Shown here one piece after another: positions 12,426-57,104 of a stretch of 64,000 nt of DNA. A program made the position numbers and the translations under genes. The notes beneath the pieces are model-generated. The model did not search any database. It was not told the origin of the DNA and saw nothing but the letters and a program-made list of their open reading frames with translations. Numbering within the stretch: the first letter of the stretch is position 1; each line of letters starts with the position of its first letter. Origin of the DNA: Candidatus Eremiobacterota bacterium (GTDB taxonomy: Bacteria; Vulcanimicrobiota; CADAWZ01; Ess09-12); contig JAVHLM010000012.1 in NCBI GenBank assembly GCA_031082125.1, positions 1 through 64,000 on the forward strand. Reading direction: 5' to 3'.

Positions 12426-13090
12426 GGGGGGATCGCTCCTTTACTCTTTGATCTTTACTGTGCTGCTCTTGAAGATATTGGGTGTCCACAGCCTTTGAGG
12501 GCCCTGGAGAAACCATGAATCCCTGGAGCCCGGGATTTTTCAATGCCTGTCCTGACAATTATGCTCATGAATCTTGTTCTTGAGAAAGCCGCAAAATCCT
12601 TTAGACTTCACAGGCTCAGCAACTGCCGTCGCATAAACAGGGATCGGTCGCGGTATTTTCCCTCTCTTATTCTGCAAAGTACCTCAGTGACTCTATGATC
12701 CTTACGGCTTTCCCGGGGGGGACGTGACCGTCAAAGGCCCTCACCAGGATCCTCCCCACGCGCATCACCTTCCAGGGCGAGGTGCCTTAGCGCTCCATAC
12801 AGGCCCCTCACGCTGAAATGCCGGAGCGATCCTCAGCTCCGCTTCTCGGCCAGCCTAAAGCAGAGCAAATGTAACTTCTTCCGGAAAATTATTCTTATAA
12901 ATGAAATTAGTGCCATCGTTCGCCGACCCTGCCTCTAAAATGGCCGTGAGGGGCCTAGAAGACTCTATGATTGCTCTACAATGGCCTTTGGGGTCATTTT
13001 TGACCTTTTTACCTCTTTCATGGCCATGGGATATCATTTGGCGATGGCCTTCAAAGCCTGCTGCAATAGGATTTTTTTGGGGTATGTCAT
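12426..13090. other. Long intergenic region with possible gene remnants
   Basis: About 700 bases between the cyclase and HNH genes hold no intact gene. Codon periodicity is poor. On the minus strand two short peptides that look alike can be read: one ends in PPGKAVRIIESLRYFAE (about 12667-12786), and the other includes PKGHCRAIIESSRP (about 12920-12990). They share the DNA word GACTCTATGAT, which suggests decayed copies of one sequence. The right end carries the HNH gene promoter. Confidence 0.4.
12667..12786 (-). pseudogene. Possible C-terminal gene remnant
   Basis: The minus strand encodes about 40 residues ending MRVGRILVRAFDGHVPP-GKAVRIIESLRYFAE before a stop. An upstream stretch in another frame (SLRHFSVRGLYGALRHLALEG) could be its continuation after a frameshift. 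No family is recognised and there is no start signal, so this is a tentative call. Confidence 0.2.
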
Positions 13091-37431: not shown

Positions 37432-37460
37432 TTGACGCCTTCCCCCCTCTCTGCTATAGT
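37432..37460 (+). promoter_or_regulatory. Promoter of the peptide/oxidoreductase operon, leaderless
   Basis: TTGACG (37432-37437), a 17-base spacer and TATAGT (37455-37460) preceded by TGC. Six bases separate the -10 box from ATG 37467, so the first gene would be translated from a leaderless or nearly leaderless transcript. No ribosome site is visible. Confidence 0.7.
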
Positions 37461-37466
37461 AAATCC

Positions 37467-37955
37467 ATGAAACGCCACGGCAGGCTTATCATCACCGTCC
37501 TGGCCCTTCTCATCGCCTGCGCCCTCCTCTTCGCCGAGAGGGCCCACTGGCAGATAGAGGACGCCTGCCGGAAGATACCCATGGAATATGATCTCACGAG
37601 GGCATACCTCAGGGAGCACCATACCACGGGGACCTTTTACTTCGCCAATACCCTTCCCGCCACTATTCATGCCAACTGCCCCGGGAACCGCAATGACACC
37701 ACCAGGGCATGGAACGACATCGTGAAACCGGTGAAGCTCTATGGGACGCGCTTCACAAGGAGGCTTCATGTGAACCTCAACGAGGACGGCACCGTGAGAT
37801 GCTCTTACACCGAAAAAGAGGGCATCACCATTCCCCGTCAAGGCGACGCCCCCCTTGAAGTGGAGCTCCACAACAGGATCGGCGAGAAGCGCCGGTTCCT
37901 GATAAGCCGAGATGGCAGCCTGCAGCAGGGCGGAGGCTCCAGAAGAGCTCCATGA
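37467..37955 (+). CDS. Small anchored protein heading the operon
   Basis: A 162-residue protein with an N-terminal membrane anchor or signal (LIITVLALLIACALLF, about residues 7-22). The rest is a soluble region with one Cys pair (Cys34, Cys67 approximately) and a basic, glycine-rich C terminus. No family is recognised. Its stop overlaps the start of the B12 radical SAM gene (ATGA), which ties it to the following biosynthetic genes. It could be an accessory or a substrate of the system; nothing in the sequence decides this. Confidence 0.55.
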   Translation: MKRHGRLIITVLALLIACALLFAERAHWQIEDACRKIPMEYDLTRAYLREHHTTGTFYFANTLPATIHANCPGNRNDTTRAWNDIVKPVKLYGTRFTRRLHVNLNEDGTVRCSYTEKEGITIPRQGDAPLEVELHNRIGEKRRFLISRDGSLQQGGGSRRAP

Positions 37956-39577
37956 AGACCGGCCTCGTGTATATTACTTATGAATCTGACGAATATGAAA
38001 GGCAGGGAGAGCTCCTGCAGGTCCCCCACCTGGGCCTGGGCTCCATTGCGTCATACATTGAAGGTCAAGGCTTCCCCTGCGAATTAATAAGCTTCAGGCT
38101 CAGCGGCGGTGAAAACGAAAAAGCCATAGGTGATTTTGCCCTTGAGAGCTTCGATGTGCTGGGATTTTCCCTCTATACCCAGAACTACCGGCCCACTATT
38201 GCCCTCGCCAAGGCACTGAAAATAAGGAAGCCCGGCCTTAAGATCATCCTGGGTGGGCCCCATGCGACTTGGACCCATGAGGACCTCATAAGAAACCATG
38301 AGGAAATAAGCGCCGTATGCCGCCACGAGGGGGAAAAGAGCTTTCTTGAGCTCTTGCAGGCAATCAAGGCGGGAGAATCCTTCCACGGAATTTCCGGCGT
38401 CACATTCCGAGATAATGGCGCGGTCCGTGCCGAGGCGCCAGGCCCTCCCCTCGATGAGCTGGACTCCCTTCCCTTTCCCAGGCGCACTTTTACCGGAGCC
38501 TCGCGCTCCTGGCAGGAGCGCTTCAACAGGAGCACTTTCAGGACCGAAAGAGGGGCCGTCATCATCACGAGCAGGGGGTGCCCCTTCCTGTGCGCCTTCT
38601 GCGCCATCACGGCAGGAGGGAAAAACCACTGGTCAGCAAGAAGCTCCCGGTCTGTGGAAGAAGAGGCCCGGAAGGTAAAGGCCCTTACAGGAGCCACCCA
38701 TTTTTACGCGCTGGACGCCAACTTCCTGGTGGATCCCCTGAGGGCTCTTGCCATAGGGAGGGCCTTCAAGGGGCTCTGCTGTACCTTCTCCTTCGCCGCG
38801 AGAGCCGACCAGGTGGCCGAAAATGGGAAGCTCATGGGGAAGCTCAGGGAGCTGGGCTGCTCCATGATTGAAGTAGGCATAGAGAGCGGCAGCCAGGCAG
38901 TGCTTGACCGGTACCGCAAGGGAACGAAAGTGGCGCAGAATGAGAGGGCCATCGCGGTGCTGAGGGAGCATGGAATAAGGCTGGGATTCGACTTTCTGAT
39001 GTTTATGCCCACCCTTACCTTCGATGAGCTCTGCGAGAGCTTTGCCTTCATAAGAAGAAACGGTCTTTACGGCACCGAGCCCTTTGAGACCCTCGCCAAG
39101 CGCGTGGAGCTTTACCCCGGCACGGCGCTCCGCGGGGAATGGGAGCGCCTCAACGGGCCTTCCGACCCCCATTCACTGCCGCGCTATCACTTCGGCGACG
39201 GGCGCATTGAAGCCCTTTATCAAGGTATCAGGGAATTCATGGACCGTTACTATTTCAGGGCCAGGGAGCGCGCCGCACTGTTAAGAAAGGCTCTTTTTCC
39301 CCTCGAGGCCCTGATTGCCGGGAATCCCGGGCTGCTTGAAAGGCCTTCCAGGAGATTCATCGGGAAATGCCTCATTGAATGCGACATTCAGAACCGAATC
39401 GCTTTCAGGTTCTTCGAGGAGGCGCTCTCACGGTGCGCTTCAGGGAAAGGGGCGGCCCCTGACGAGGTGCTGTCCGCGCCCCACCGGGAGAGGATTGAAG
39501 GGTTTCTTAGTGAGTTTCCCAGGGTGATGGAGGCAATCATGGAGCTGCAGGTGAAATACGGCAGCCATCTTGAATAG
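37952..39577 (+). CDS. B12-binding radical SAM enzyme
   Basis: A 541-residue class B-type radical SAM protein. Residues about 10-165 resemble a cobalamin-binding Rossmann domain (GLGSIASYIEGQGFPCEL, LGGPHATW), without the DxHxxG ligand motif, as is common in this class. The radical SAM core (about 195-400) carries SRGCPFLCAFCAI, the CxxxCxxC iron-sulfur ligands. A helical C-terminal region follows. Family members often methylate unactivated carbons. It is the second gene of the operon with the ATP-grasp, SPASM, peptide and oxidoreductase genes, so a peptide or small-molecule substrate made there is likely. Confidence 0.8.
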   Translation: MKTGLVYITYESDEYERQGELLQVPHLGLGSIASYIEGQGFPCELISFRLSGGENEKAIGDFALESFDVLGFSLYTQNYRPTIALAKALKIRKPGLKIILGGPHATWTHEDLIRNHEEISAVCRHEGEKSFLELLQAIKAGESFHGISGVTFRDNGAVRAEAPGPPLDELDSLPFPRRTFTGASRSWQERFNRSTFRTERGAVIITSRGCPFLCAFCAITAGGKNHWSARSSRSVEEEARKVKALTGATHFYALDANFLVDPLRALAIGRAFKGLCCTFSFAARADQVAENGKLMGKLRELGCSMIEVGIESGSQAVLDRYRKGTKVAQNERAIAVLREHGIRLGFDFLMFMPTLTFDELCESFAFIRRNGLYGTEPFETLAKRVELYPGTALRGEWERLNGPSDPHSLPRYHFGDGRIEALYQGIREFMDRYYFRARERAALLRKALFPLEALIAGNPGLLERPSRRFIGKCLIECDIQNRIAFRFFEEALSRCASGKGAAPDEVLSAPHRERIEGFLSEFPRVMEAIMELQVKYGSHLE

Positions 39578-39607
39578 AAAAGGGACTACAAGACCGGCAG
39601 GGAGCTT

Positions 39608-40513
39608 ATGGCACCAGGGAGAAGGATTCTCGCCAGGGACGGGCGACTCCAGGAAGCTCTTGATTTTTATGCTTCCAGGGGGTATCAGATTTCCCTGTAT
39701 CACCATGAAGACGCCCTTCCAGGCTTCATAAAGGAGCGCGCTTTCGATTATTTCCTCCTCTCCCACCCGGGGGAGATCCCCTTCTGCGAATCCCTGGAAG
39801 CCAGGGGGGCGCACCTTGTGGGGGCAGGTTTTCTCAGGCCTTCCGCTTCCCTTGATAAAATCAGGCAGAAGGAGAAAACAAAGGCTCTCGGGCTCTCCAC
39901 CCCTCCCTCGGTAGTCATCCGGCGCCATGAAAAGGATTCATTTCTCTTGACGGTGCGCACCCTTGAAATGAAGCCGCCCTACATCATCAAGAACCCTGCA
40001 GCTCACGGGAGCAGGGGCGTTACATTACTCGCCACATCGGAAGAAATGGAAAGCAGGGTGCCGGATCTCCTCAGTGACAGCGATGTCCTCATAATGGAGC
40101 ATTTCATCGAGGCAAGGGAGCTGGCCCTGTGCCTCATGGGAGAGGACGAGGCCCTCCTTCTTCCCCCCGTGGAGATATTTCATGGAGGGCGCCTCTTCTC
40201 CAGGGAGGCGAAACTGCAGGGCTTTACCATAAGCATTCCTGCCGCGCTCACAAAAAGAGAGCGCGGCAGGCTCTCAGAGCTTGCCATGAGGGCTTACAGG
40301 GCTTTTGAGTGCCACGGCATGGTCCGCCTTGACATGCTCCTTGGCAGGGACGGGACTCCCTATCTGCTGGAGATAATGTCCTTCGGAGAGGGAATGAGCT
40401 CGCACCATCTGAGCACCAGGAGCGCCGCCTGCCTGGGCATCGGCTTCTTTCGGCTCCTCCTTCTTCACCTTGACTGGGCCCATTCACGGGCCGGGAGGAG
40501 AGGGCATGGATAG
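39608..40513 (+). CDS. ATP-grasp ligase
   Basis: A 301-residue protein with the ATP-grasp fold of the D-Ala-D-Ala ligase/RimK type, which joins a carboxylate to an amine via acyl phosphate. Seen are IIKNPAAHGSRGVT (ATP-binding Lys and glycine-rich loop), VLIMEHFIEARELAL, and the metal-binding end MVRLDMLLGRDGTPYLLEIMSFGEGMS, aligned with the Ddl metal site; a typical Asn there is replaced by Met. AGGGAG precedes the ATG. It overlaps the SPASM gene by eight bases. In this operon a peptide or amino-acid ligation is the natural inference. Confidence 0.75.
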   Translation: MAPGRRILARDGRLQEALDFYASRGYQISLYHHEDALPGFIKERAFDYFLLSHPGEIPFCESLEARGAHLVGAGFLRPSASLDKIRQKEKTKALGLSTPPSVVIRRHEKDSFLLTVRTLEMKPPYIIKNPAAHGSRGVTLLATSEEMESRVPDLLSDSDVLIMEHFIEARELALCLMGEDEALLLPPVEIFHGGRLFSREAKLQGFTISIPAALTKRERGRLSELAMRAYRAFECHGMVRLDMLLGRDGTPYLLEIMSFGEGMSSHHLSTRSAACLGIGFFRLLLLHLDWAHSRAGRRGHG

Positions 40514-41936
40514 CAGGCTCACTTTTCCCCACGGCGTGGAATTCAAGATCTTCAGGGCAGGGCGCCGCAGCCTCATCTACGACGTCGAGGGCGCCGGCCT
40601 TTTCTTTGCCGAGGAGCCGGCCCTCTCGCTCCTCAGGCTGGGCAGGACCATGGAAAAGAAAGCCCTGATGAGAGTTCTGGAGCCCCGCTTCGGCCGCCGC
40701 CAGATCCGGGAGAGCCTGGAACAGATGGCGGAGCTCAGAGCCCGGGGATTTCTGCTAGAGCGCGGCGAAGTAAAGCGGCTCGGCCCGTCAGGCGAGGGGA
40801 GCCGCCTCCAGTATCTCGTGCTCCTTGTCACCTCCCGCTGTAACCTTGCCTGCCGTTACTGCTTCACCAGGGAGCGCCGCGGGGAGCCGCCGGACATGGC
40901 GCCTGCGACGGCAAAAAAGGCCGTCGATCTCCTTGTCGGCAGGCTCAGGAGAGACAATACGCCCGGCGGCACCATCTGCTTTTTCGGCGGCGAGCCTCTT
41001 CTCAACTTTTCCTGCATCAGGGAGACGGCGTCATATGCCCGCGAAAAGGGAAAGGACCTTTCCCTCACCCTCTCGCTGGTCACCAACGGCACCCTTCTCA
41101 CACCCTCGATAATAGCATTCCTGAAAGAGCATGCCATTGAGACAAGAATCGGCATTGACGGGCCCCGGGACGTGGAGGATTCAATCAGGCCAGGGGCTTG
41201 CGGTGAAAAGGCCTTCCCGATGGTCACCAGGCATCTTCCCCTCCTGATCAGCACCCTTGGTGACAGCCTTTCCGCCAGGGCCACCTGCACCACGGAAAAC
41301 AACAACCCCTGGGAAGTGTACCGCTCCCTCAAGGCCCTGGGCTTCCCGAGAGTGGACCTCGGCCCCTGCCTTTTCTCGCCAGACAAAGACCTCGCCCTGA
41401 GGGAAAAAGCTCACCTGAGGACCTATGTGAAGGGGATGGTCGCGCTCAAAAGGGAAGAGATAAAGGAAGGGGCCTATCAGGGAGGCACCTCTGATTTTTT
41501 CAGGAGGGTGCTGCTGAGAAAAAAAAGGCTTTATGCCTGCGGGTACGGGCGGTCCACCGTGACCGTGGAGCCCTCGGGCGCCATCATACCCTGTTATCGC
41601 TTCAGCGGCATGCATCACTTCACCATGGGCGACCTCTGGAAGGGATTCTCAAGGGGCGCTGAGAAAGAATATGGGAAGACCGTCAATGACCTTCCCCGCT
41701 GCAGGGTCTGCTGGGCTCGCTACTACTGCGGGGGAGGGTGTCCCGGCGATCGCTACGATCTCAACGGGAGCCTGGAAAAGCCGGTGCATGAGTTCTGCTC
41801 TTACCTGAAGCAGTCATTCTCTGCAATGCTCAGGCTCTTCATTGAGCTCCCCGACCCGGTGAGGGAAGGGCTCATCAATGCCATGACAGGCCCCATGGAG
41901 AGAAGGAAAGACCATGAAAGAGAAGAAAAAGGGTGA
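40506..41936 (+). CDS. SPASM radical SAM peptide maturase-like enzyme
   Basis: A 476-residue radical SAM enzyme. Residues about 1-95 are a small PqqD/RRE-like domain. The core has TSRCNLACRYCFTRE (Cys112, Cys116, Cys119) and GGTICFFGGEPLLNF. The C-terminal SPASM domain is complete: Cys before GYGRST, SGAIIPC, CRVCWARYYCGGGC and a last Cys in HEFC, giving two auxiliary clusters. SPASM enzymes usually modify ribosomal peptides. GGAGGAGAGG sets ATG 40506. It overlaps the 57-residue peptide gene by 23 bases, and an aldehyde oxidoreductase follows, the setting described for tungsten-oxidoreductase-associated maturases. Confidence 0.85.
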   Translation: MDSRLTFPHGVEFKIFRAGRRSLIYDVEGAGLFFAEEPALSLLRLGRTMEKKALMRVLEPRFGRRQIRESLEQMAELRARGFLLERGEVKRLGPSGEGSRLQYLVLLVTSRCNLACRYCFTRERRGEPPDMAPATAKKAVDLLVGRLRRDNTPGGTICFFGGEPLLNFSCIRETASYAREKGKDLSLTLSLVTNGTLLTPSIIAFLKEHAIETRIGIDGPRDVEDSIRPGACGEKAFPMVTRHLPLLISTLGDSLSARATCTTENNNPWEVYRSLKALGFPRVDLGPCLFSPDKDLALREKAHLRTYVKGMVALKREEIKEGAYQGGTSDFFRRVLLRKKRLYACGYGRSTVTVEPSGAIIPCYRFSGMHHFTMGDLWKGFSRGAEKEYGKTVNDLPRCRVCWARYYCGGGCPGDRYDLNGSLEKPVHEFCSYLKQSFSAMLRLFIELPDPVREGLINAMTGPMERRKDHEREEKG

Positions 41937-42087
41937 AAAGCCTCAGGACAGCAAGGACAAGAAGCCCGGGGGGAAAAAGAAATACCTCATCCCTCTCGTG
42001 ACGGCCATTATGCTCACTGAAACCACCGAGGAGGTAATGGCAAAATGCAAGTGCGAGCCTGCCGATGATCCCTGGATTTACGGATAG
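41914..42087 (+). CDS. Candidate RiPP precursor peptide (57 aa)
   Basis: A short gene with AAGGA six bases before its ATG, starting inside the end of the SPASM gene. The 57-residue product has a Lys-rich start (MKEKKKGEKPQDSKDKK), a hydrophobic middle YLIPLVTAIML, an acidic stretch TETTEE and the tail VMAKCKCEPADDPWIYG with Cys45 and Cys47. Position, size, coupling to a SPASM maturase and a Cys-containing C terminus fit a modified-peptide precursor. No GG cleavage site precedes the tail. Which residues are modified is unknown. It could alternatively be a small membrane-associated subunit of the oxidoreductase. Confidence 0.75.
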   Translation: MKEKKKGEKPQDSKDKKPGGKKKYLIPLVTAIMLTETTEEVMAKCKCEPADDPWIYG

Positions 42088-42130
42088 GTTAAGGCGCCTG
42101 CAGGGGTATGACTGAGAAGGGAGCTGAGCA

Positions 42131-44359
42131 ATGATGGCCTGGTATGGATACCGGGGAAAAATACTGGACATCGATCTTTCGTCAAGGACCGCGAAGGCCC
42201 TTGAGCTTGATGCCATAGAGGCGCAGAACTTCATCGGAGGAGCAGGCCTCAATGCCTGGCTCCTCTACAAGTCCTTCAGGCCTGATATAACGCCCCTCTC
42301 GCCTGAAAATCCCCTTATTTTCGGTGCGGGCCCCCTCACGGCCACCTCCTACCCTGCCTCGTCGCGCTCGACGTTCACAGCCCTCTCGCCCCTCACGGGA
42401 ATCTTCGGTGACGCCAACGGCGGGGGCTATTTTGCCACGATGGTGCGGCAGGCCGGCTATGACCACCTTATCGTGCGGGGAGCAAGCGACAGGCCCTGCT
42501 ATATTCTCATAGGAAGAAAAGGGGAGTGCACCATTGAAGAGGCCGGGGATCTCTGGGGAATGGACGTGCCTGAAACTGACAGGGTGCTTGGAGAGAGACA
42601 CAAGGGAAGCATGGCGGCGTCAATAGGAACGGCCGGTGAAAAGCTGGTGAGCTATGCAAACATTCTCACGAGAGGCGGCGGAAACTCCTGGTCCAGGACA
42701 GGGATGGGCGCCGTCATGGGCTCAAAGAGACTGAAGGCAATTGTGGCCAACGGCCGTGAAAAAATCATGCTCCACGACGAGGAAGGCTTCAAGAGCCTTT
42801 CTGAAAAAATCAAGCACCTCTCCCAGACCGATACGCGGTCCATGGTCTTTTCGCGGTGGGGCACCGTGATGCAGATCAGCCTTTTCGCGGCAATGGGCCT
42901 CCTTTACGGGAACAACCTCAGCCACCGCCTCTCCCTCAAAGAGGCCGGCAGGATCGGCATCACCCCCTTTTCCAGGGAAACTGATTTTACGGTCCAGGGC
43001 TGCTACCGGTGCCCCCTCAAATGCGAAAAGCGCTATACTCTCAAGAACAATCCTCATAAAGGGGAAGAAGGCCACAAATATGAGCTCGGCTATGCCTGCT
43101 CGCTGGGATTCAACGTGGGAATAAACAACGTCAACGAGGTGCTCCACCTCGCCGACGTATGCAACACCCTCGGGCTTGACATGGTGGAATTCAGCTCTTC
43201 AGCGGCAACGGCCATTGAGCTCTTCAGGGAGGGTATCCTGAAGCACGCCGATACCGACGGCATCGAGCTTGACTGGAACAGGCCTGCGGCCGTGGAAGCC
43301 CTCGCAAGGAAGGTGGCCAAACGCGAAGGCATCGGCGATCTCCTCGCGGGGGGCGTGCGGAAGATGGCCGAGACGCTTGGCGGGGATGCGCACAAGTTTG
43401 CCATCCATTTCAAGGGACTGAGCGAGCCGGCCCACGACTCGCCGCCATTTCTCCTCAGTTTCTCGGTGGCAACAAGAGGTGGCGATCATCTGAAGGGCAT
43501 GCCCATCCTGCTGCTGGATGGCGAAAACCGGGAGCTTGCGGCCACGCTTTTTGGCGCCACCAAGGAGACAATGGACCTGTACTCCAACGGGGACAAAGGC
43601 CGCGCCATCTGGTGGCATGAGAACTACAAGACCATGATTGACTCTCTCGGCATATGCTTCTTTCTTGCCACGGTGCTGCTGCCGGCGGGGAACCTCACAG
43701 CGGCGCAGTGCGCGGAGGCTTATCGCGCCGCCACGGGGTATCAGAAGGGAGGCCGGGATCTTTTCCTCGCGGGAGAGAGAGCCTACCTCGTGGAGAAAGC
43801 CATCAATGCCCGCCTTGGCGTGGACAGGTCCCGGGACTGCATGAAGGCCCGCCAGGAAGCCGGCTCGTGGGGCAGCAGCGCCAACCTGGACCACCCGGGA
43901 ATGCTTGATGAATACTACCATTACCGGGGATGCTCCCAGGAAGGCCTCCTGCTCGGGGAACGGCTGAAGGAGGCGGGGCTTACAGCGGTGGCAAAAGACC
44001 TGGAGCGCGAGGGGAAGCTTGGCAAAGAGCCTGTTTACTCGGTGTACAGGTCCCTTGCCCTTGCCTACCGTGAGCCGCCGGCAGCGCCGGGGAAAAAAGC
44101 CGGAGAGTCGCTCAAGGAGAAGGTCACTTCCAATAAGAAGCTGATGGAGACTCTCACGGGCGACGGCGTGGTGAATACCGCCATAAAGAGCGTGGAGATA
44201 AAGCGCTCCCTCAGGAAGTTCTCGGAAAAATACGGAACGTCGCTCCTTGTAGGCGCAGGGACCGCCGCTGCAGCTTACGGGATATGGCACCTCTTTTCCC
44301 GCGACAAGGAGAAGACGGGGGAAAAGGCGGCCAGGAGGCTGAAAGAGGATTCCCTCTAG
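42131..44359 (+). CDS. Tungsten-type aldehyde:ferredoxin oxidoreductase with C-terminal tail
   Basis: A 742-residue member of the AOR family, which oxidises aldehydes or reduces acids using a tungsten bis-pyranopterin and a [4Fe-4S] cluster. It has the N-terminal GYRGKILDIDLSS and FIGGAGLNAWLL, cofactor-binding segments, cluster ligands CYRCPLKC (Cys291, Cys294, Cys298) and the distant Cys509 in SLGICFF. Standard AORs end near residue 650. Here about 90 extra residues follow, with a Lys-rich helix and a hydrophobic stretch SLLVGAGTAAAAYGIWHLF that could anchor it to the membrane or a partner. It is the last gene of the peptide/radical SAM operon and is convergent with the NAD-kinase-like gene, one base apart. 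Confidence 0.85.
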   Translation: MMAWYGYRGKILDIDLSSRTAKALELDAIEAQNFIGGAGLNAWLLYKSFRPDITPLSPENPLIFGAGPLTATSYPASSRSTFTALSPLTGIFGDANGGGYFATMVRQAGYDHLIVRGASDRPCYILIGRKGECTIEEAGDLWGMDVPETDRVLGERHKGSMAASIGTAGEKLVSYANILTRGGGNSWSRTGMGAVMGSKRLKAIVANGREKIMLHDEEGFKSLSEKIKHLSQTDTRSMVFSRWGTVMQISLFAAMGLLYGNNLSHRLSLKEAGRIGITPFSRETDFTVQGCYRCPLKCEKRYTLKNNPHKGEEGHKYELGYACSLGFNVGINNVNEVLHLADVCNTLGLDMVEFSSSAATAIELFREGILKHADTDGIELDWNRPAAVEALARKVAKREGIGDLLAGGVRKMAETLGGDAHKFAIHFKGLSEPAHDSPPFLLSFSVATRGGDHLKGMPILLLDGENRELAATLFGATKETMDLYSNGDKGRAIWWHENYKTMIDSLGICFFLATVLLPAGNLTAAQCAEAYRAATGYQKGGRDLFLAGERAYLVEKAINARLGVDRSRDCMKARQEAGSWGSSANLDHPGMLDEYYHYRGCSQEGLLLGERLKEAGLTAVAKDLEREGKLGKEPVYSVYRSLALAYREPPAAPGKKAGESLKEKVTSNKKLMETLTGDGVVNTAIKSVEIKRSLRKFSEKYGTSLLVGAGTAAAAYGIWHLFSRDKEKTGEKAARRLKEDSL

Positions 44360-44360
44360 A

Positions 44361-45299
44361 TCAGCGGCCTGCCTCCCTTGCTGCGAGGCAGGCGCTCTGC
44401 TCCGCCGCCTTCACTCTCACGAGGGCCCCGGCATTGAAGGCCAGGTAGTCAGCCTCTATTCCGTCACTGAAAATCACTCCCCCCGAAGGCATCAGGGATT
44501 CAAGCTCGAGCACCTCTGCGCGCTCCAGTATACCTGCCACAGTATCAGCCTTTGAATGCCTGCTCACAAAGGGCTCCCTCACCACGAAAATGAGCCTTTC
44601 CTCATCCCAGGTCATGGTAATCCCGCCGGGGCTTTCCCCCCCAAGAAATGCGGCGATGCCCCTGGTCATCGTAAAGAGTGACGAGAGCCACCCCGTCGAG
44701 CCGGCACCGGTCGAGACTATGACCCCGCTCGAGGAATGGGGCTCCTTCTTCCCCCGCCACCTGATATGGTATCTGGCGGAGACATGGCTTGACGCCCCTA
44801 TAAAGAGGTCATTGAAGGCGAGAAGCCTCTGGCCGTCGTTGAGCTGAGCCTCGGCAAGCGTCACTTTCCTGAGGTGCGCCCTGCCTTTGAGGATTCGCTC
44901 GATTTCACCGCGGGCATCCTGAGGCCTGAAGGGCAGGAGCACGCCGTCAATGCGCCCGGGATCAGGATTCACCGCCACGATGGGCTGCCCCGCCACGTAC
45001 TTGGCCGTGTTTGCCACGAGGCCGTCCTGCCCGATGGTCACCACTATGTCCCTGCTGGCGAAAAGATAGGTGGGTACAAGCCCGCGGTCAATGACCTGGA
45101 GCTTGAGGACCATGTCAAGGGCGCGGAGGACCTGCTCCCTGGACCTCATATAGGTGTCATGCTCCTCCCTGTATTCAGAGAAATCGCCCCCCGCGTGCTC
45201 TATGTAAAACTTGGCCTGGGCCGCGGTGACAAAGCGCTCCATGAGCCCCTCGAGCCTCGTTTTCCTCGTCACGACGACAATCTTGTCAAATCCTTCCAC
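44361..45299 (-). CDS. NAD kinase-like protein
   Basis: A 312-residue protein of the NAD kinase/diacylglycerol-kinase fold. TIGQDGLVANTAKYV stands where NAD kinases have GGDGTxL, AFNDLFIGASSHVS matches the substrate NE/D motif, and SSGVIVSTGAGSTGWLSS matches the conserved STGSTAY-like loop. The altered GQDG box suggests a changed phosphate donor or substrate. It starts three bases after the SPFH gene, so the two form an operon. Whether it phosphorylates NAD or a lipid/sugar is open. Confidence 0.7.
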   Translation of the reverse strand: MEGFDKIVVVTRKTRLEGLMERFVTAAQAKFYIEHAGGDFSEYREEHDTYMRSREQVLRALDMVLKLQVIDRGLVPTYLFASRDIVVTIGQDGLVANTAKYVAGQPIVAVNPDPGRIDGVLLPFRPQDARGEIERILKGRAHLRKVTLAEAQLNDGQRLLAFNDLFIGASSHVSARYHIRWRGKKEPHSSSGVIVSTGAGSTGWLSSLFTMTRGIAAFLGGESPGGITMTWDEERLIFVVREPFVSRHSKADTVAGILERAEVLELESLMPSGGVIFSDGIEADYLAFNAGALVRVKAAEQSACLAAREAGR

Positions 45300-55617: not shown

Positions 55618-55730
55618 GTGAGATTCTCGTGCTTTATAATTCAATGACCGGCAACACCGAAAAAATCGCGGAGAAGATTCATCATGTCGCCTCGGCCATG
55701 AGCCTGGACTCCGAGTTAATCAGGATGGCG
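55618..55730 (+). pseudogene. Broken flavodoxin gene
   Basis: The plus strand reads ILVLYNSMTGNTEKIAEKI followed by ASAMSLDSELIRMA, an exact flavodoxin FMN-phosphate signature at the N terminus. A GTG at 55618 after GAGAGG would start it if one A were restored (GTGAGATT in place of GTGAAGATT), so it appears frameshifted at codon 2. After about 38 residues it runs into the antisense of the radical SAM gene, losing the other two thirds. Confidence 0.7.
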
Positions 55731-57104
55731 CCCGGAACATGCCTGATAATCCCGCTCCAGCGTGCCCAGCCGCTTCAACAAATCTCCATAGGCTCTGAAA
55801 AGTGACGGCATTTCCCGGAGAGGATATTTACTCAGGAGCCTGAACTGGCTCTTCACCGACCTTGAGCGCTTGAAAAGCGTAACCACCTCTCTATAAAAGT
55901 CCTTTATCGGCAATCTTGTAGGCAGGAGCGAATGGAAGAAATCAAAAAAGTCGTAATCGGAGGTGATAAGGCTTTCCCTGACTTCGGTATAAAGGTCGGT
56001 TCCCGGCAGGGGAGTCAGCACTGAAAAGCCGATAAAATCAAGTTCCAGCTCAAGGCAGTAATCCCGTAGATTCGTGAAATCACTCCGGTCGAATTCGGGC
56101 TTCAGGATAAACGTGGGGAATATATCAATGCCCAGTCTTTTGAGTATCTTGACGGCCTTTCTGTTGTTTTCCACCGTCGAACCCTTGGAGATGGATTTCA
56201 TGTCATCGTCGCTGGAGAATTCCAGCCCCACGAAGACGCGCTCCAACCCTATCTTCTTCCACCGCTCGACAAGCTCGGGATGCTTCGCAATCGTGTCACT
56301 TCGCCCATACAGAAAATAGCGTTTTTTTATCCCGGCTTTCTCGATGAGATCGGCAAGTATCCCCATGCGTTTTACATCAATGAGTGACTCATCATCAGCA
56401 AAGAATACGCATTTCTCTTCTATAGTGCCCAGTTCTTCCACGATATGTTCCGGCTTCCTGGTAAGATAGCGACCGCCGGTCAATTTCCAGAGGGCGCAGA
56501 ATCTGCATCTGAAGAGACAGCCCTTCGATGTCCGGATTGAAGCCAGAGGCTTCATCCATTCGCTGAAATAGGTTTTCCTGTAACCTGCGGTGAGATCTCT
56601 TCTTGGGAAAGGGAGGTCGTCCAGATCGATGGCCTGATCCACAGGGTGTATGACTATGGCATGCTCTCCCGCGGGGACTGCCCCTGGGATTCCCGATAAA
56701 GCAATCTTTTTTTCCAGCCGCAGAATAATCTCCCTGAAAGGAAATACGCCTTCGCCAACCACCACTATATCTATATCAGGGAGACAAAAATCCCCGGGCA
56801 TGACCGTCGCGTGGTGTCCTCCAACTATTGTCACAATATCGGGATTGAATGTCTTGATCTGCCTGAAAAGCCTCTTCACCGTGTTCACGTGCACAGTATA
56901 GGAAGTGATGCCAGCAACATCAGGACGATAATCGCGAAGGACCGAATCGAGATCTCGCTCGATCCGCATATCGAGAATGCGGGTCTCATTACCATCTGGA
57001 ACACCTGCTGCAAGGTATTCAAGCGCCAGGGGCTCAAAAATAGAGAAATCCTCTCCTCCCAGCGCCTTTTCGGGCTTAGCGGGCTGAATAAGCAGTATCT
57101 TCAT
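55716..57104 (-). CDS. B12-binding radical SAM protein (HpnR-like)
   Basis: A 462-residue enzyme. Residues about 1-140 form a cobalamin-binding domain (FEPLALEYLAAGVPDG, VGGHHATVMPGDF). The radical SAM core has SKGCLFRCRFCALW (CxxxCxxC), and a helical C-terminal part follows. The N-terminal blocks resemble hopanoid C-3 methylase HpnR, but other class B methylases share them. Third-position G/C is visibly lower than in neighbouring genes, and its 3' end cuts the flavodoxin remnant, both suggesting acquisition. The ribosome site is poor. Confidence 0.7.
   Translation of the reverse strand: MKILLIQPAKPEKALGGEDFSIFEPLALEYLAAGVPDGNETRILDMRIERDLDSVLRDYRPDVAGITSYTVHVNTVKRLFRQIKTFNPDIVTIVGGHHATVMPGDFCLPDIDIVVVGEGVFPFREIILRLEKKIALSGIPGAVPAGEHAIVIHPVDQAIDLDDLPFPRRDLTAGYRKTYFSEWMKPLASIRTSKGCLFRCRFCALWKLTGGRYLTRKPEHIVEELGTIEEKCVFFADDESLIDVKRMGILADLIEKAGIKKRYFLYGRSDTIAKHPELVERWKKIGLERVFVGLEFSSDDDMKSISKGSTVENNRKAVKILKRLGIDIFPTFILKPEFDRSDFTNLRDYCLELELDFIGFSVLTPLPGTDLYTEVRESLITSDYDFFDFFHSLLPTRLPIKDFYREVVTLFKRSRSVKSQFRLLSKYPLREMPSLFRAYGDLLKRLGTLERDYQACSGRHPD

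Follow-up and report, generated by a model that had tools for sequence, protein, structure and literature searches.

Six co-directional genes, all on the + strand, span positions 37467–44359 of the window, the whole 64,000-nucleotide stretch of DNA that was analysed. This arrangement, taken from the sequence and its ORF coordinates, is the one described by the initial annotation, and the gene families proposed there are confirmed by Pfam and NCBIfam matches. The features are as follows.

37432–37460, + strand: promoter-like site, TTGACG-17-TATAGT, with 10/12 consensus matches (a consensus match only)
37467–37955, + strand: 162-aa orphan protein; hydrophobic helix at the N-terminus, lipobox-like LIAC
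37952–39577, + strand: B12-binding/radical SAM protein, 541 aa, with CxxxCxxC at residues 210–217
39608–40513, + strand: Ddl-like ATP-grasp ligase, 301 aa (Pfam Dala_Dala_lig_C, 2.9e-22; DdlB alignment)
40506–41936, + strand: radical SAM/SPASM peptide maturase of the SCIFF/PapB/QhpD/Nif11 group, 476 aa, with a predicted RRE at residues ~12–79
41914–42087, + strand: 57-aa putative precursor peptide with a basic N-terminus, a YLIPLV segment, Cys45 and Cys47
42131–44359, + strand: tungsten-type aldehyde:ferredoxin oxidoreductase (WorL/AOR), 742 aa, with AFOR_N and AFOR_C

The six genes form a real operon. The first gene overlaps the B12 radical SAM gene by 4 bp, 30 bp separate the latter from the ATP-grasp gene, and the ATP-grasp and SPASM genes overlap by 8 bp. 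The peptide gene begins within the SPASM gene (23 bp overlap) and is followed, after a gap of 43 bp, by the AOR gene, which is the last of the operon. Because a convergent gene lies directly downstream (44361–45299, − strand) and the operon starts 48 bp after the end of a Ser/Thr kinase gene, it is a compact unit. Its codon usage scores well with a model trained on the remainder of the window, and nothing therefore points to an insert of foreign or chimeric origin. No exporter, protease or peptidase gene was found within the operon by inspection of its ORFs and Pfam matches. The region holds four promoter-like sites, compared with 1.9 expected from shuffles. As the TATAGT element ends 6 nt before the first ATG, which has no Shine-Dalgarno sequence, the message would be leaderless if this site is real. 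A layout similar to this possible leaderless start at 37467 occurs at 12901, and most other genes of the window differ.

The product of the first gene has no family match in Pfam or NCBIfam and no homologue among 149 genomes of the phylum. The helix at its N-terminus, which reaches a Kyte-Doolittle value of 2.49 across 19 aa, and the LIAC motif suggest a membrane-anchored or lipoprotein-like protein. A structure predicted from the one sequence has a pLDDT of 43.5 and is usable for the N-terminal helix only.

For the B12 radical SAM protein the nearest curated families are HpnJ, BchE and ApyD, all far under their cut-offs, and RiPP C-methyltransferases are also matched weakly in NCBIfam. Relatives at about 30% identity are common across the phylum, and membership of this family therefore says little about the substrate. 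A second B12 radical SAM gene of the window (55716–57104) is HpnR-like, with 250/650 bits, and adjoins neither a peptide nor an AOR gene. The ATP-grasp protein scores 103 bits against a Ddl cut-off of 243 and is not assigned as a true D-Ala-D-Ala ligase; where Ddl has EVN, an alignment with DdlB places EIM (EIMSFGEGM). The Asn of the Ddl EVN motif, a Mg ligand, is thus replaced in the window protein. Grasp-with-spasm RiPPs combine an ATP-grasp ligase, a SPASM enzyme and a small peptide. The window operon also carries these three components, but its ATP-grasp protein is of the D-Ala-D-Ala-ligase type, matching Dala_Dala_lig_C and Ddl families instead of the RimK/MvdD-type ligases of graspetides and grasp-with-spasm systems. 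No grasp-with-spasm model appears among the 25 best NCBIfam matches of either the ATP-grasp or the SPASM enzyme. Both the ATP-grasp and the B12 enzyme are only distant relatives of enzymes having many substrates, and neither has a close relative in the 149 phylum genomes.

The SPASM enzyme retains an intact radical SAM CxxxCxxC motif and a complete seven-Cys SPASM motif. Its best NCBIfam matches are the Nif11 maturase (224 bits), QhpD (197), PapB (194) and the SCIFF maturase (191), but it scores under the cut-off of every curated maturase family, and its chemistry is therefore not fixed by family membership. By sequence the nearest solved structure is CteB (5wgg; E 5e-44 over residues 22–431). 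In an AlphaFold2 model built from 22 sequences (pLDDT 82), residues 12–79 adopt the beta-beta-beta-alpha-alpha-alpha arrangement of an RRE, and a Foldseek search with this model again ranked CteB first (451 columns, TM 0.75/0.80). The two cysteine motifs, the predicted N-terminal RRE fold and the adjacent precursor gene are the features of a ranthipeptide-type maturase in the broad sense, and the enzyme is best regarded as a candidate of this type, with non-alpha thioether formation as its putative reaction. A predicted RRE implies that a leader-bearing peptide is probably bound as the expected substrate, and we consider it probable that the 57-aa peptide is that substrate. Narrower assignments do not apply. 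The SCIFF maturase family (TIGR03974) has a cut-off of 425 bits, and the neighbouring peptide has two Cys residues, not six; that of QhpD (TIGR03906) is 453 bits, and the operon has no QhpA, QhpB or QhpC genes; that of PapB (NF047865) is 340 bits.

The peptide has the sequence MKEKKKGEKPQDSKDKKPGGKKKYLIPLVTAIMLTETTEEVMAKCKCEPADDPWIYG. It had initially been described as ending in Cys-Lys-Cys; this motif in fact occupies residues 45–47 and is followed by ten further residues, EPADDPWIYG. The ORF is coding-like, as its codon usage score of 0.347 exceeds those of all 160 spurious ORFs of 45–75 aa found within large genes of the window (maximum 0.277), and a Shine-Dalgarno-like AGAAGGA lies upstream. 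Residues Cys47-Glu-Pro-Ala-Asp51 form the only CX3D motif of the peptide, a motif that is present in 13% of shuffles of the same 57 residues. No close relative was found in the 149 phylum genomes, and this orphan peptide consequently offers no homologues with which to compare its individual residues. Weak matches in 11 other genomes (E 0.04–0.75) were judged to be due to chance; five of the matched loci (L257, L259, L262, L264 and L265), each covering ~3 kb, contain no comparable small Cys peptide, SPASM gene or AOR gene.

The AOR carries AFOR_N (228 bits) and AFOR_C (263 bits) domains and aligns with the Pyrococcus furiosus enzyme (1aor) over residues 5–618. The Cys ligands of the [4Fe-4S] cluster are kept at positions 291, 294, 298 and 509, as are the residues aligned with Glu313 and His448 of P. 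furiosus AOR. Beyond the aligned part lies a C-terminal extension of ~120 aa that has no match in the four sister AORs of the same genome or in the best 80 of 583 AORs. A stretch at 705–723 reaches only a borderline Kyte-Doolittle value of 1.25 (19 residues), and we do not claim it as a membrane anchor. In a phylogenetic tree the end branch of the window AOR is 1.96, compared with a median of 0.55. No close relative was found in the 149 phylum genomes, and among the matches listed no AOR is more than ~38% identical over a long stretch, those from the plasmid collection being at about 30% only. The window AOR thus appears, among the matches listed, to be an orphan lineage on a long branch. Among the four sister AORs, three adjoin a ThiS-like protein and one a ferredoxin-like protein, in keeping with the WorX and small-subunit partners of a recent classification of tungsten oxidoreductases (WORs) (PMC13328260). 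The window operon has neither a ThiS-like (WorX) nor a ferredoxin-like partner gene.

The initial annotation had pointed to a described SPASM maturase group associated with tungsten oxidoreductases. Membership of the window enzyme in that group is not upheld, as it scores 34.8 bits on TIGR04317 (W_rSAM_matur, tungsten cofactor oxidoreductase maturase) against a cut-off of 380. Genuine members served as positive controls and lie directly beside other AORs (398 bits at locus L094 and 385 at L100), and a SPASM gene directly beside the AOR at L114 scores 350 bits. These loci resemble the window operon in that a SPASM gene adjoins an AOR gene. They differ in that the TIGR04317 proteins (345–352 aa) are shorter than the window enzyme and by their length have no room for an N-terminal RRE, and in that no Cys-containing small peptide adjoins the maturase at L094, L100 or L114; a ThiS-like gene follows the maturase gene at L094 and L114. 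Three other elements of the initial interpretation are supported: the SPASM enzyme looks like a peptide maturase with an RRE, a radical SAM core and a SPASM domain closest to those of CteB, the peptide gene is adjacent and coding-like, and the AOR gene belongs to the same operon.

A search for co-occurrence, suggested initially as a check, gave no second instance of the gene set in the phylum (149 genomes, or 58 for the SPASM enzyme) or beside the AORs examined. The SPASM enzyme has no close relative in the 58 phylum genomes, and a contig scan with this protein alone as query returned no relative. An AOR profile scan gave at least 583 confirmed loci, of which the best 80 were examined. Beside these there was no match to the ATP-grasp protein or the peptide and no relative of the peptide-type SPASM enzyme, and the only SPASM and B12 matches were distant ones from other families, the best-placed SPASM being TIGR04317. 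Complete lack of co-occurrence among the four enzymes had been named in advance as evidence against the proposal. Formally this is what the sample gives, but it weighs little given that the AOR is itself an orphan lineage, and for this reason the result neither supports nor cleanly refutes a link between peptide and AOR. Our literature search found nothing joining AOR, SPASM and tungsten.

Several characterized systems offer partial parallels. CteB and its precursor CteA, a SCIFF pair, share with the window a SPASM enzyme with an RRE, radical SAM core and auxiliary cluster motifs, encoded next to its precursor, and CteB is the top match by both sequence and fold. The window enzyme is nevertheless only 24% identical to CteB and falls well short on the SCIFF maturase model, its peptide has two Cys residues instead of six, and AOR, ATP-grasp and B12 enzymes are added. 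QhpD cross-links the leader-bearing QhpC, and its operon also encodes the metalloenzyme to which QhpC belongs as small subunit (PMC7876137). Here too a SPASM enzyme, a small polypeptide and a metalloenzyme are encoded together, and QhpD is the second-best NCBIfam match; however, the score is far under the cut-off, the operon has no QhpA or QhpB, protease, exporter or flavin monooxygenase, and the large subunit would be an AOR. PapB joins Cys to Asp in CX3D motifs (PMC9413430), and this thioether, formed in PapA (freyrasin), provides a model for Cys47-Asp51, although the window SPASM enzyme is under the PapB cut-off and its peptide has one CX3D motif, not six. Compared with WOR classes I–V, the window AOR corresponds to a WorL whose [4Fe-4S] and pterin motifs are intact, whereas the operon has no WorS, WorN or WorX (PMC13328260). 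Class V membrane WORs have a WorS with a Tat signal, and the operon encodes no WorS-like iron-sulphur protein. The main text of this classification, which covers 4,064 WORs, does not mention radical SAM partners (PMC13328260).

The explanation that we prefer, and hold only tentatively, is that the operon encodes both an AOR and a small peptide that is matured to serve this enzyme. The RRE domain of the SPASM enzyme would bind the N-terminal part of the 57-aa peptide, and the enzyme would then form one or two thioethers from Cys45 and Cys47 to nearby acidic or hydroxyl residues, the CX3D rule known from PapB making Cys47-Asp51 the likeliest cross-link. The cross-linked product would remain intracellular, since the operon has no exporter and no protease. 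There it may join the AOR, near the [4Fe-4S] cluster or the C-terminal extension, as a small subunit or as a redox or ligand module, taking the place of the ferredoxin-like and ThiS-like partners of other AORs. The model precedent is quinohemoprotein amine dehydrogenase, whose small subunit is QhpC after its cross-linking by QhpD. An additional amide or ester bond might be installed on the window peptide by the Ddl-like ATP-grasp enzyme, and another radical modification, for example a methylation, by the B12 radical SAM enzyme. Whether the peptide serves or touches the AOR at all appears to us evenly balanced, and action of all three enzymes on the peptide is doubtful; these estimates, like that for the substrate of the SPASM enzyme, are judgements and were not computed. 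It is unlikely that the full proposal holds, in which a ribosomal peptide carrying thioether, ATP-grasp and B12-dependent modifications is a dedicated cofactor or subunit, making this the first RiPP-dependent tungsten enzyme. The link between peptide and AOR is at present only their membership of one operon. Against the preferred explanation, the arrangement is a single instance in which no conserved co-occurrence ties the peptide to the AOR, and an operon can carry genes of unrelated pathways. The sub-threshold family scores of the SPASM enzyme, the frequency of CX3D in shuffles, the orphan state of the peptide and the distant kinship of the other two enzymes weigh in the same direction.

In a different reading, the AOR is an unrelated aldehyde-oxidising enzyme that just shares the transcript with an ordinary ranthipeptide or signal peptide. 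SCIFF ranthipeptides are listed as having a signalling role (PMC8326336), and such peptides therefore need not serve the adjoining enzyme; the association was also found in no second genome of the phylum or beside the best 80 of 583 AORs. We nevertheless regard this as rather unlikely, considering that a gap of 43 bp separates the peptide gene from the AOR gene, with which the operon ends, that there is no secretion gene, and that the AOR here lacks its usual partners. The AOR could instead be a tailoring enzyme of the peptide pathway. It would oxidise an aldehyde, or reduce a carboxylate, carried either by the peptide or by a building block that the ATP-grasp enzyme attaches, and the product would be a RiPP with a role of its own. 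RiPP pathways are usually arranged in this way, with a peptide gene and several enzyme genes in a single operon, and this very divergent AOR has a C-terminal extension, unique to it, to which a peptide could bind. Its active site is ordinary, though, genes for an exporter or a protease are missing from the operon, and we know of no case in which an AOR acts on a RiPP, all of which make this role distinctly unlikely.

That the SPASM enzyme matures the AOR or its tungstopterin, as the name of TIGR04317 implies, with the peptide as a minor structural protein, is very improbable. TIGR04317 SPASM genes do adjoin AORs, as the three loci above illustrate, but the window enzyme falls far below the family cut-off, has an N-terminal RRE for which those proteins are too short, and is nearest to CteB in sequence and fold. 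A variant of our preferred explanation is a real possibility: the ATP-grasp and B12 enzymes would not act on the peptide and would make a small molecule for the AOR or for another pathway. HpnJ and BchE, the best curated relatives of the B12 enzyme, act on hopanoids and tetrapyrroles, and the ATP-grasp enzyme is not a graspetide ligase. Weighing against the variant, both genes lie directly upstream of the SPASM gene in the operon, with overlap between the ATP-grasp and SPASM genes, and the B12 enzyme has weak matches to RiPP C-methyltransferases and ApyD.

What appears to be new here, in one instance, is putative ranthipeptide-type maturation encoded beside a WOR together with two extra enzymes. 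The roles of most tungsten oxidoreductases are given as unknown in the WOR classification (PMC13328260). Should the peptide act as a matured subunit or cofactor, the principle of QhpC, a small subunit cross-linked by a radical SAM enzyme, would extend to tungsten enzymes, and the SPASM genes found beside AORs would be of at least two kinds. Such a result would be important, and it reduces to a directly testable question about two genes, namely whether the SPASM enzyme cross-links the peptide and whether the AOR binds it.

The genome from which the window derives is rich in SPASM-type genes, with 25 matches to the window SPASM protein. Pairs or clusters of such genes on contigs C23, C41 and C8 (L273:4525-16565, L274:230-5217 and L276:4698-7593) resemble further peptide-modifying systems. 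Elsewhere in this genome (L074:6171-9387) a SCIFF-maturase-like SPASM gene adjoins a type II secretion/pilus F-type gene (T2SSF), and the same pairing recurs in three genomes of the same order and in genome G012 (L067, L069, L071 and L068). Two of these SPASM proteins were scored and reached 364–390 bits, just under the cut-off of 425. The ORF lists of these loci contain no six-Cys peptide, and pilin-like genes follow in several of them; the SPASM protein is possibly a pilin-modifying radical SAM enzyme, or a maturase that has lost its former peptide. In another genome of the phylum (L070:852-2324), a SCIFF-like pair consists of a 49-aa peptide with GGCMTCQSSCQTACKTSATVSNQ and a maturase scoring 409/425 bits.
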